Assembly: GCA_947631615.1 (NCBI GenBank)
Contig: CANRLX010000004.1
Coordinates: 23,658-87,657, forward strand
Length of the DNA: 64,000 bases
From: an uncultured Acetatifactor sp.
GTDB taxonomy: Bacteria > Bacillota > Clostridia > Lachnospirales > Lachnospiraceae
Direction of reading: 5' to 3'
Part shown: positions 13,122 to 18,120 of the stretch, one piece after another
Layout of the letters: every line of letters starts with the position of its first letter
Position numbering within the stretch: the stretch's first letter is position 1
The notes under the pieces: generated by a model
What the model saw: the letters and a program-made list of their open reading frames with translations, nothing else
Database searches by the model: none
Told to the model about the DNA's origin: nothing
Translations under genes and position numbers: made by a program

Positions 13122-14507
13122 ATGTATCAAGTGGATTTCGATCATCCCATATCCGTCTATTTCGTCGGAATAGGCGGCATCAGCATGAGCGGTCTCGCCG
13201 AGATCCTGGCGGACGCCGGTTTTCAGGTGTCCGGCTCCGACCGGAAAGCCTCCGCTATCACCAGATCCCTGGAAAAGAAAGGCATTACCGTCCGATACGG
13301 GGAGAGCCCCGACCACATCACGGACGACATCGACTGCGCCGTGCTGACCAGCGCCGTCCATGAGACGAACCTGGAGTATCAGGCGATCCTTGCAAAGGGG
13401 ATCCCTTACCTCTCGCGGGCACAGCTTTTGGGCCAGATGATGCGCAATTATGACACCCCTGTCGCAATCAGCGGCACCCACGGCAAGACCACGACCACCT
13501 CCATGGTGTCGGAGATCCTGCTGCGGGCCGGCAAGGATCCCACGCTCTCCATCGGCGGCATCCTAAAGACCATCGGGGGGAATGTCCGCATTGGCCGATC
13601 GGGCTATTTTGTGACCGAGGCGTGCGAGTACACCAACAGCTTTTTAAGCTTCTTCCCCAAGATAGGATTGATACTTAATATAGAAGAAGACCACCTGGAC
13701 TTTTTCAAGGACCTCGAGGACATCCGACATTCTTTCCGCTCCTTTGCCGAGCTTTTGCCAAAGGACGGCTGCCTGATCATCAACAGCGATATTCCGGACT
13801 GGCGTAAGATCGCGGAGGGACTGCCCTGTCGGGTGGTGACCTACAGCGGGGGAGCGCACGCCGACGCGGACTACTGTCCCTCGGATATCCGCTATGACGA
13901 GTCCGGCCACCCCTCCTTTTTGCTGCACGCGCCCGCCTTTTCGGATGCGGCCTTCTCCCTGAAGGTTCCCGGACAGCACAACGTGAGCAACGCGGTGGCA
14001 GCCATCGCCCTGGCGGATCTTTTGGAGGTGGACCGCGCGGTCACGGCGGAGGCGCTTCGGGACTTCTCCGGCACGGATCGCCGCTTTGAGTACAAGGGCA
14101 CCGTCGGCGGCGTCACCGTGATCGACGATTACGCGCACCACCCCACAGAGATCACCGCGACGCTCAAGGCGGCCGCAAATTACCCCCACAAGACGCTCTG
14201 GTGCGTCTTTCAGCCTCACACCTACTCCCGTACCAAGGCGTTTTTAAAGGACTTCGCCAAGGCCCTTTGCCTCGCCGACAAGGTGGTTCTGGCGGATATC
14301 TACGCCGCCAGAGAGACGGACAATCTGGGCGTCAGCTCCGAGACTCTGAAAGCGGAGATCGAAGCGCTGGGACACGAGTGCTTCTACTTCCCCACCTTTG
14401 ATGAGATTGAAAATTTTCTTTTGGAAAATTGCATAAACGGGGATCTGTTGATAACTATGGGAGCCGGAGACGTGCTCAAAATCGGGGAAAATCTTCTCGG
14501 GAAATAG
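13122..14507 (+). CDS. murC: UDP-N-acetylmuramate--L-alanine ligase
   Basis: FVGIGGISMSGLAEIL, ISGTHGKTTTTSM, VIDDYAHHPTEI. Confidence 0.97.
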   Translation: MYQVDFDHPISVYFVGIGGISMSGLAEILADAGFQVSGSDRKASAITRSLEKKGITVRYGESPDHITDDIDCAVLTSAVHETNLEYQAILAKGIPYLSRAQLLGQMMRNYDTPVAISGTHGKTTTTSMVSEILLRAGKDPTLSIGGILKTIGGNVRIGRSGYFVTEACEYTNSFLSFFPKIGLILNIEEDHLDFFKDLEDIRHSFRSFAELLPKDGCLIINSDIPDWRKIAEGLPCRVVTYSGGAHADADYCPSDIRYDESGHPSFLLHAPAFSDAAFSLKVPGQHNVSNAVAAIALADLLEVDRAVTAEALRDFSGTDRRFEYKGTVGGVTVIDDYAHHPTEITATLKAAANYPHKTLWCVFQPHTYSRTKAFLKDFAKALCLADKVVLADIYAARETDNLGVSSETLKAEIEALGHECFYFPTFDEIENFLLENCINGDLLITMGAGDVLKIGENLLGK

Positions 14508-14678
14508 TTTTCCACATATCCACAGAATAAACGGAGCTTTGGGCCATTTTATTCTGTGGATATTTTTGATTTGTCTGTGGATATTTTATCCGTTGCCATA
14601 CGCCGCGGATCCTCGGATATTCTACCCCTTTTCTCCCCTTTCGCCCCTTTGTTATCCACAGTATCCACACTGTCCACA
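14508..14678. promoter_or_regulatory. Cluster of DnaA-box-like 9-mers with a 16-bp perfect inverted repeat
   Basis: TTTTCCACA 14508, ATATCCACA 14516, TGTGGATAT 14555 and 14576, then TTATCCACA 14652, GTATCCACA 14661, CTGTCCACA 14670; IR ATATCCACAGAATAAA/TTTATTCTGTGGATAT at 14516-14563. Confidence 0.65.
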
Positions 14679-14802
14679 TTTTTTGTCAAGTCCAGTGTTT
14701 ACAAGGCTTTCCGGCAATTTGACTCTTTTCTTTTGGCGCTCCATATGCTATACTTTGAGATGTTTTCAAAGGAAAACAGACACTGGAAAGGACTGTGACC
14801 CT

Positions 14803-15867
14803 ATGGCACATTTAGCGATTTACAAGGACAACGATACCACCTCTACCGTGGTGCCCAATCTCTTTATTGACAAATACCTGGCGGATGCCAACGATGCGCA
14901 GATCAAGGTATATCTGTATCTGCTGCGTATGTTCAGCGCCGGTCAGGCTACCAGTGTGTCCGATATCGCTGATAAATTCAACCATACCGAAAAGGACGTG
15001 ATCCGCTCGTTAAAATATTGGGAGAAGCAAAAGCTTCTGAATCTGGAGTACGACGAGGAGAAGAATCTGCGCGGGATCCATCTGCGCGACTTAAGCCAGG
15101 CGGCCGGCATCTCCCCCTCCGGAAAAAATCTGAAGCTGACTCTGTCCGCCCAGCCCGAGCCGCCGGAGCCGTCCGATGCCTTTCCTGTGGCGCAGGAGAC
15201 GCCTTTTTCCAAGCCTGCGTACTCTCCGGACCAGCTCCGCGAGTTTAAAAACCGTGCCAACACCTCGCAGCTTCTGTTTATTGCGGAGTCCTACATCGGG
15301 AAGCCCCTGACTCCCTCCGAGATGAAATCCATCCTGTTTTTCACGGATGTGCTGCACTTCTCGGACGACCTGATCGATTACCTGCTGCAGTACTGCGTGG
15401 ACCGGAATAAGAGAGATTTCAAATACATAGAAAAAGTCGCCATCCGCTGGGCCGAGGAGGGTGTCACCACTCCAAAGCAGGCGCAAAAATACGCTTCCCG
15501 CTATGACAAGAGCGTCTATACCATCATGAACGAGCTGGGCAAAAGCGGAAGCCCCACCTCAAAAGAGCTGGAATTTATCAATCGCTGGACGAAGGAGTAC
15601 GGCTTCTCCATGGATATCATCGCGGAGGCCTGCGAGCGCACGGTCCTCGCCACGGACAAGCACCGCTTTGAATATGCCGACAGCATTTTAAGCAGCTGGC
15701 TCCGCCAGGATGTACACCACAAGGCGGACATCCGCCGGATCGATGACCTGCACCAGAAGCAGAAGGCGGCCAAGCCCGCCAAGTCCTCCGGTTCCAACCG
15801 TTTTAACCAGTTTCCGCAGAACAACTACGATTTCGACGCTCTGGAGCAGGAGCTTCTCAGCAACTGA
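14803..15867 (+). CDS. DnaD-domain replication protein
   Basis: N-terminal winged-helix-like region (DAQIKVYLYLLRMFSAGQATSVSDIADKFNHTEKDVIRSLKYWEKQKLL) and DnaD-like C-terminal repeats; followed by a DnaI/DnaC-like ATPase. Confidence 0.82.
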   Translation: MAHLAIYKDNDTTSTVVPNLFIDKYLADANDAQIKVYLYLLRMFSAGQATSVSDIADKFNHTEKDVIRSLKYWEKQKLLNLEYDEEKNLRGIHLRDLSQAAGISPSGKNLKLTLSAQPEPPEPSDAFPVAQETPFSKPAYSPDQLREFKNRANTSQLLFIAESYIGKPLTPSEMKSILFFTDVLHFSDDLIDYLLQYCVDRNKRDFKYIEKVAIRWAEEGVTTPKQAQKYASRYDKSVYTIMNELGKSGSPTSKELEFINRWTKEYGFSMDIIAEACERTVLATDKHRFEYADSILSSWLRQDVHHKADIRRIDDLHQKQKAAKPAKSSGSNRFNQFPQNNYDFDALEQELLSN

Positions 15868-15897: not shown

Positions 15898-16890
15898 GTG
15901 TCACTCAGCAATACACAGTATGAAGCCATTATCAGCGGCTATGAGCGCACCCGCGACCAAAACCGCCATATCCTGGAAGAGCGCAGAGCACAGGTCTACC
16001 GCCAGTGTCCCGCTCTCCGCCGGTTGGACGACTCCGTGAGCGAGATCTCCGTGGCACAGGCCAGGCAGCTTCTGGAGGGGGACGAGAGCGCACTGGACAC
16101 ACTGCGCAAGTCCTTGCAGGACATCGCCTCCCAAAGAGCTACTCTGCTTAAGGAGGCCGGTTTTCCGGAGGATTATCTAAAACCCATCTACACCTGTCCC
16201 GACTGCCAGGACACCGGATATCTGCAGACCTCCGAGGGCCTGCGGGAAAAATGCCACTGCTTCCGCAGACAGGAGATTTCCCTCCTGTACGAACAGTCCA
16301 ACATTCAGGACATGGTGGCCCGGGAAAACTTCTCCACCCTGTCCTACTCCTACTATCAGGGGGAGGATTTGGAGCGGTTTCAAAGGGCGGTGCACATCTG
16401 CCGGAATTTTGTCCAATCTTTTCATCAGGACTACCATAATCTGTTCTTTTATGGTACAGTAGGAACAGGAAAAAGTTTTTTATCCGGCTGCATTGCCAAC
16501 GAGCTGCTGGGGGCGGGATATTCTGTGATCTATTTCAGCGCCTCCGGTCTGTTTGAGACCTTGGCGAGGTATGCTTTCGGCTCAAGGGAAAAGGAGGCTC
16601 TGTCCGCCTTTTGCAGCGATTTGTACGGCTGCGACCTGGTGATCGTCGATGACTTGGGCACCGAGGTGACGAACGCTTTTGTGACGTCCCAGCTTTTTTC
16701 CTGCTTGACGGAGAGGCATCTTCGCCAGCGCTCCACGATCATCTCCACCAACCTGAATCTGGAGGAGCTGCGCGACCGCTATTCGGACCGCGTGTTCTCC
16801 CGAATTACCAGCAACTACACACTCTGCAAGCTGACCGGACCGGATATCCGTATGCAGAGGAAGGTCGCCAACCACGCAAAAGAATCCTAA
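15898..16890 (+). CDS. DnaC/DnaI-like helicase loader ATPase
   Basis: Walker A GTVGTGKSFLSGCIANELL, Walker B LVIVDDLGTE, N-terminal CPDCQDTGYL...CHCF zinc-binding pattern. Confidence 0.9.
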   Translation: MSLSNTQYEAIISGYERTRDQNRHILEERRAQVYRQCPALRRLDDSVSEISVAQARQLLEGDESALDTLRKSLQDIASQRATLLKEAGFPEDYLKPIYTCPDCQDTGYLQTSEGLREKCHCFRRQEISLLYEQSNIQDMVARENFSTLSYSYYQGEDLERFQRAVHICRNFVQSFHQDYHNLFFYGTVGTGKSFLSGCIANELLGAGYSVIYFSASGLFETLARYAFGSREKEALSAFCSDLYGCDLVIVDDLGTEVTNAFVTSQLFSCLTERHLRQRSTIISTNLNLEELRDRYSDRVFSRITSNYTLCKLTGPDIRMQRKVANHAKES

Positions 16891-16935
16891 CCGCAATTAA
16901 CCAGCGTTACATGACAGAAAGTGAGGATATTTTTC

Positions 16936-18120
16936 ATGGCAAACCGTGAAGAAAAACGTAATCTTGAGACCATTCCCGTCGGCTCCCTGGGGATCATCTC
17001 CCTGGAGGGCTGTAAACCCCTGGGACAAAAGGTAGATCAGTTCCTTGTAAAGTGGAGAGCCGAGCGCGAGAGCGAGCACAAGGGTTCCCTCGCCTTCTCC
17101 GGCTATCAGAGAGATTCCTACCTGCTCAACGCCAGAGTTCCCCGCTTCGGATCCGGCGAGGCAAAGGGCACCATCCTGGAGTCCGTGCGCGGAATGGATC
17201 TGTATCTTCTGGTGGATGTGCTGAATTATTCCATGACTTACTCTCTCTGCGGCCACGAGAACCATATGTCTCCCGATGACCATTATCAGGATCTGAAGCG
17301 CATCATCGCCGCGGTGGGCGGTAAGGCGCGGCGCATCACGGTGATCATGCCCTTCCTCTACGAGAGCCGCCAGCATAAAAGAACCGCCAGGGAGTCTCTG
17401 GACTGTGCGCTGGCGCTTCAGGAGCTGGTGCGCATGGGAGTGGACAATATTATCACCTTTGACGCGCACGATCCCAGGGTACAAAACGCGATTCCCTTGC
17501 ACGGTTTTGAGACGGTGCAGCCCGCATACCAGTTTATCAAGGGACTCTTAAAGCACGTGACCGACTTAAAGATCGACTCCAACCACATGATGGTCATCAG
17601 CCCCGACGAGGGCGGCATGTCCCGCGCCATCTACATCGCCAATGTGCTGGGGCTGGACATGGGTATGTTCTACAAGCGGCGCGATTATACCAAGATCGTC
17701 AACGGTCGAAACCCCATTGTCGCTCACGAGTTTTTGGGAACCAGCGTGGAAGGCAAGGATATGATCATCATTGACGATATGATCTCCTCCGGCGAGAGCG
17801 TGCTCGAGGTCGCCGCTGCGCTAAAGGCCCGCAAGGCCAACAAGATCTTTGTCTTTTCCACCTTTGGTCTGTTTACCAACGGGCTGGAAAAATTTGACAA
17901 GGCTTATGAGAACGGCGTGATCGACCGCATCCTCACCACAAACCTGATCTACCAGACTCCGGAGCTTTTGCAGCGCAAATGGTACATCGACTGCGACATG
18001 AGCAAGTACATCGCCTATATCATCGACACGCTCAACCACGATTCTTCCATCAGCGATCTGCTGAATCCCAACGAAAGGATCCAGAGCATTGTCTCGCGGT
18101 ATAAAAACGGAGAGCTATAA
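16936..18120 (+). CDS. prs: Ribose-phosphate pyrophosphokinase
   Basis: ENHMSPDDHYQDLKRIIAAVGG, FDAHDPRVQNAIP, MIIIDDMISSGESVLEVA (PRPP-binding loop). Confidence 0.93.
   Translation: MANREEKRNLETIPVGSLGIISLEGCKPLGQKVDQFLVKWRAERESEHKGSLAFSGYQRDSYLLNARVPRFGSGEAKGTILESVRGMDLYLLVDVLNYSMTYSLCGHENHMSPDDHYQDLKRIIAAVGGKARRITVIMPFLYESRQHKRTARESLDCALALQELVRMGVDNIITFDAHDPRVQNAIPLHGFETVQPAYQFIKGLLKHVTDLKIDSNHMMVISPDEGGMSRAIYIANVLGLDMGMFYKRRDYTKIVNGRNPIVAHEFLGTSVEGKDMIIIDDMISSGESVLEVAAALKARKANKIFVFSTFGLFTNGLEKFDKAYENGVIDRILTTNLIYQTPELLQRKWYIDCDMSKYIAYIIDTLNHDSSISDLLNPNERIQSIVSRYKNGEL

Follow-up and report, generated by a model that had tools for sequence, protein, structure and literature searches.

In the 64,000-nucleotide stretch of DNA analysed here (the window), which comes from an uncultured Acetatifactor sp. 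of the Lachnospiraceae, seven DnaA-box-like 9-mers lie in the 295-bp gap between murC and a dnaD gene. The cluster is best explained, at a probability of roughly 0.7 as judged from sequence, as a DnaA-binding cis-regulatory module of the dnaD-helicase-loader operon, in which a terminator containing DnaA boxes would act as an insulator. The likely control of loader genes by DnaA throughout the order would constitute a feedback step downstream of DnaA in dominant gut bacteria. To our knowledge, the control of replication initiation is poorly known in Firmicutes beyond B. subtilis. For C. difficile, how DnaA activity is regulated has been described as unknown (PMC7561715).

Box cluster in the murC-dnaD gap

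The seven 9-mers of the original prediction were all found where it had placed them, including the three contiguous ones at 14652-14678, and six of the seven differ from TTATCCACA by one mismatch at most. Its calls of the downstream genes were correct in kind, with profile matches identifying a DnaD-domain protein and a DnaC/DnaI-type loader ATPase. The features of the locus, all numbered by window position, are as follows.

13122-14507, + strand: murC, UDP-N-acetylmuramate--L-alanine ligase (NCBIfam TIGR01082 above cut-off; Pfam Mur ligase domains)
14508-14516, + strand: DnaA box 1, TTTTCCACA, in most relatives likewise found at +1 behind the murC stop
14516-14524, + strand: DnaA box 2, ATATCCACA, in the left hairpin arm, kept at about +10 after the murC stop
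14516-14563, + strand: hairpin predicted to be the intrinsic terminator of murC, with a T-run at 14564-14567 behind the arms 14516-14531 and 14548-14563
14555-14563, - strand: DnaA box 3, ATATCCACA, in the right hairpin arm (inverted repeat; stem pairing in relatives)
14576-14584, - strand: DnaA box 4, ATATCCACA, mainly in the window's own genus
14652-14660, + strand: DnaA box 5, TTATCCACA, identical to the consensus, opening the contiguous tandem array (genus alignment)
14661-14669, + strand: DnaA box 6, GTATCCACA (genus alignment)
14670-14678, + strand: DnaA box 7, CTGTCCACA, two mismatches; relatives usually have TATCCACA at the aligned position
14712-14734, + strand: conserved motif CGGCAATTTGACTCTTTTCTTTT between array and -10 (genus alignment)
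14746-14754, + strand: predicted extended -10 of the dnaD promoter, TGC-TATACT (TATACT at 14749-14754), within the conserved TATGCTATACTT
14803-15867, + strand: DnaD-domain replication-initiation protein, probable target gene (PF07261, E=7.5e-42, two DnaB_2 stretches; TIGR01446)
15898-16890, + strand: helicase-loader ATPase of the DnaC/DnaI type, probably the operon's second gene (NF005304 above cut-off)
16921-18120, + strand: ribose-phosphate pyrophosphokinase-type (PRPP-synthetase-type) protein, possibly the third gene of the operon (NF005299 above cut-off)

The murC stop codon directly adjoins box 1, and boxes 1 and 2 overlap by one base (14516). The loader ATPase also gave weaker matches to DnaC, DnaI and DnaA AAA+ profiles.

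Widespread chance occurrence of comparable clusters, the possibility raised against the prediction, was not encountered. In 3000 dinucleotide shuffles of the 295-bp gap the mean was 0.17 boxes and the maximum 3, so that six were never reached. Genome-wide clusters were counted by pattern searches of the 3.47-Mb draft, in which the tandem pattern TNTCCACANTNTCCACA matched in this gap only (two overlapping matches) and a looser 9-bp-tandem pattern gave five other matches, mostly within ORFs. A chance origin of the cluster is excluded. The window as a whole holds 45 boxes where 33 are expected, and because this is only a mild excess, the signal resides in the clustering.

Two minor observations concern single boxes. 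A weak box, TTATCAACA, is found on the minus strand at 14446-14454, still within the 3' part of murC, and has counterparts in many relatives some 62 bp ahead of the first tandem pair; as its bases are also murC codons, the encoded protein sequence may account for it. In five contigs of the draft (C45, C52, C62, C108 and C136), TTATCCACA occurs on the minus strand near base 50-60, a near-identical position that suggests a shared repeat at contig ends.

Conserved layout, hairpin and predicted promoter

The comparison set of orthologous gaps drew on about 40 species from the genus of the window, about 130 genera in the family with one genome apiece, and 80 named records. The mean number of boxes per gap was 5.2, as against 0.19 after shuffling, and 173 of 184 gaps carried at least three. 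With one genome per genus, at least three boxes were found in 111 of 129 family genera, while six of the 129 had none in the gap as delimited, and some lineages had short gaps with a single box group; the array is therefore not essential everywhere. The same layout follows murC in most other families of the order. Elsewhere in the class, no cluster was found at 27 murC 3' ends, nor at 24 dnaD-like loci (one of the 24 from the same order), although the class-level dnaD sample consists of distant homologues, which makes the exact boundary of the element approximate. Since both murC and dnaD lack boxes outside the order, the element belongs to the murC-dnaD junction; ownership of the boxes by murC rather than dnaD is not supported, as murC outside the order is without them.

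The full layout, which is common to the relatives and goes beyond the original prediction, comprises two groups of boxes. Group 1 consists of direct boxes at +1 and about +10 past the murC stop, followed about 40 bp on by an inverted box; a second inverted box is found mostly in the window's genus. Group 2 consists of two or three contiguous direct boxes with a 9-bp period. Conservation in the genus alignment is concentrated in islands, namely group 1 with the hairpin, group 2, and a promoter-like stretch ending TATGCTATACTT.

Boxes 2 and 3 form part of the hairpin, likewise a feature beyond that prediction: each sits in one arm of an inverted repeat, perfect over 16 bp (14516-14531 and 14548-14563), whose fold is more stable than all 200 shuffles (z = -4.2). 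The window hairpin was absent from a simple terminator scan restricted to loops of 3-8 nt. Among 234 distinct family gaps, 180 contain the inverted core pair, mostly 35-36 bp apart, and at inner stem positions 1-6 the fraction of gaps with Watson-Crick pairing was 0.87, 0.74, 0.73, 0.58, 0.66 and 0.54, compared with about 0.3 in a control that combined arms from different genomes. Outside the box cores the stem thus varies in sequence yet keeps its pairing across genomes. At least five T in the 8 nt after the stem were counted in about 90% of the 180 gaps, and the window's copy has a short TTTT. Both marks of a terminator, a stable hairpin with selected pairing and a U-run right after the stem, are present, and from them we infer that this is a murC terminator with DnaA boxes as its arms. 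A terminator made from DnaA boxes would be an unusual overlap of RNA and DNA-protein signals.

The second group is tied to the promoter. In the window the -10 lies 70 bp past box 7, and in 106 of 171 gaps the distance from the array end to the -10 is 68-71 bp; with one gap per genus the peak is at 69-70 bp, with lesser peaks near 49, 59 and 79 bp. Both an excess of boxes beside the promoter and a conserved box position relative to it, as looked for in a promoter-region element, were found. If the transcription start is assumed to lie about 7 nt downstream of the -10, the array occupies about -109 to -83. No -35 hexamer at a spacing of 16-18 bp was found for this -10 on the + strand; a conserved TTGACT lies 24 bp from it, too far for a usual -35. 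This TTGACT is included in the motif at 14712-14734, the consensus of which in the genus is approximately CGG-AATTTG-CTATTTCTTTT.

The distance between groups 1 and 2 ranges from 59 to 171 bp among the gaps and seems to step by about 11 bp (R 0.43-0.61 for pooled gaps, 0.55 with one per genus). With promoter-anchored boxes the one-per-genus step weakened, the null reaching it in about 1.5% of draws with a best period of 9.6, and nothing significant was found in contrasts between nearest relatives. The stepping may be caused by shared ancestry, and for looping between the two box groups it is a hint only.

Proposed control and alternative readings

In the proposed mechanism, DnaA would bind the contiguous boxes 5-7 (14652-14678) cooperatively, and the array-bound protein would govern how active the extended -10 promoter at 14746-14754 is; the supply of helicase-loading proteins would then track the amount or nucleotide state of free DnaA. 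Boxes 1-4, fused with the murC terminator, would keep murC transcription out of the operon, and group 1 would form a second DnaA-bound site that may cooperate with the array. From sequence features we infer that DnaA occupies the boxes, that murC transcription ends at the hairpin and that the promoter is used, as well as the sign of control; because the array is upstream of the promoter and not over it, activation, or repression mediated by a loop, is slightly favoured over simple occlusion. Recognition of the boxes by DnaA is supported by the canonical DHTTIIH recognition signature in the genome's own DnaA; the same 9-mer box is found in oriC-type regions next to dnaA. Among the three readings that the original prediction had set side by side (DnaA control of primosome genes, a titration locus or an ori-like element), DnaA control appears the best supported, through the order-wide conservation of the gap and the fixed promoter distance.

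A variant in which DnaA bound to the terminator arms would gate read-through from murC into the dnaD-loader operon, forming together with the array a looped switch, is offered as a tentative and rather unlikely extension. If it were true, helicase loading and cell-wall precursor synthesis would both be tied to the initiator, and a stem made up of initiator boxes would represent a novel type of regulatory element. That the element is an RNA or terminator signal alone, the TCCACA/TGTGGA arms being simply a stem and the other boxes derived from it by duplication, would agree with the strong covarying T-run hairpin right behind murC. This is very unlikely, however, as the distal direct-repeat array lies outside the hairpin and has been preserved both in sequence and in its position with respect to the promoter, and a stem alone does not explain why the arms keep a DnaA-box sequence while the inner stem varies. 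Binding by another protein that recognises TTATCCACA-like sequence is highly improbable given that the same 9-mer clusters beside dnaA and that the genome's own DnaA bears the canonical recognition signature; we know of no other protein family with a TTATCCACA-like site.

Doubtful, too, is a titration or inactivation site of the DBC or datA type, at which the boxes would soak up DnaA and the neighbouring operon would be incidental, even though five to seven strong boxes fall within less than 200 bp. In complete or near-complete genomes the locus is a moderate distance from dnaA (0.24-0.79 Mb), which also fits titration and from which it follows that the locus replicates early. Like datA in E. 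coli and the DnaA-box clusters of B. subtilis, it comprises several boxes outside oriC, and datA likewise lies downstream of a terminator, that of a tRNA operon (PMC10950094). Yet datA requires an IHF site and acts on DnaA-ATP, whereas here the cluster holds a constant position with respect to a promoter. A titration site needs no constant distance between array and promoter, and the cluster is always in the murC-dnaD gap while both the chromosome arm and the distance from dnaA vary. Titration is possible as a side effect, but as the main role it is not indicated by a constant promoter distance and a variable dnaA distance.

It is unlikely that the cluster is a replication origin, and the ori-like element of the original prediction, as a secondary or ancestral origin, is hardly credible. 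The boxes do share their type and tandem geometry with oriC regions of the family (e.g. locus L235), but in all 209 gaps the 60 nt on the 3' side of the last box were free of a DnaA-trio pattern, (TA[AG])x3, an only moderately informative result, as the strict pattern is likewise absent from the genome's own dnaA-upstream region. The window's own spacer is 54% GC, and the GC skew, proposed in the prediction as a check, spoke against an origin, being negative throughout the window with no change of sign. The dnaA gene is on another contig, where an oriC-type region flanks it, with box clusters before dnaA and before dnaN, and in complete or near-complete relatives the dnaD locus lies about 0.24-0.79 Mb from dnaA, on either side.

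Comparison with known systems and boxes at other genes

DnaA acts as a transcription factor for replication genes, for example at B. subtilis dnaA-dnaN, and the Caulobacter dnaB helicase gene belongs to its DnaA regulon (PMC8203912). The targets of the B. subtilis type described there resemble the present locus in having clusters of 9-mer boxes in promoter regions and replication-linked control by DnaA. The direct B. subtilis targets listed there (PMC8203912) do not include dnaB-dnaI or dnaD, whereas the probable target here is a helicase-loader operon; in addition, the present boxes directly adjoin one another, and a predicted terminator stem takes in some of the cluster. Caulobacter dnaB is similar in having boxes upstream of a gene for the helicase-loading step, and differs in that the phylum is another and the target is the helicase itself; the passage on it does not speak of a terminator element (PMC8203912).

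The closeness of the boxes counts against the DnaA reading in one respect, since E. coli DnaA prefers box pairs 2-3 bp apart (PMC11317965) and boxes 5-7 abut. The clustered boxes of C. difficile oriC1 and oriC2, where three in a row stand next to a DnaA-trio, are similar, but those regions lie beside dnaA and contain a DnaA-trio and an unwinding element, neither of which was found here (PMC7561715). DnaA-dependent attenuation has been proposed for the E. coli his operon, where boxes are likewise tied to an RNA stem-loop and termination (PMC10989985). At his, each box carries two mismatches, and the leader RNA is the proposed target of DnaA (PMC10989985), whereas here strong boxes form the arms of a predicted terminator between two transcription units; neither his attenuation nor datA involves a terminator made of strong boxes. 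In the open-access literature, no paper was found that treats DnaA boxes together with Lachnospiraceae and dnaD, or with Blautia.

Of 20 fetched tandem loci, 10 (L228-L231, L237, L239, L241 and L245-L247) have their contiguous boxes upstream of hpf, the gene for the long ribosome-hibernation factor. At least two boxes were present within 700 bp upstream of 17 of 20 hpf genes whose start was placed by motif, and the window's own genome likewise has boxes upstream of hpf (contig C126; L308, L380). No fixed promoter spacing was found at the hpf genes examined. These boxes predict a wider, putative DnaA regulon in Lachnospiraceae.

In three genera (L232, L234 and L236), a further tandem box pair occupies a gap close to mecA and to a gene for a Fur-type regulator; in two of these three loci a gene for an NlpC/P60 protein adjoins as well.
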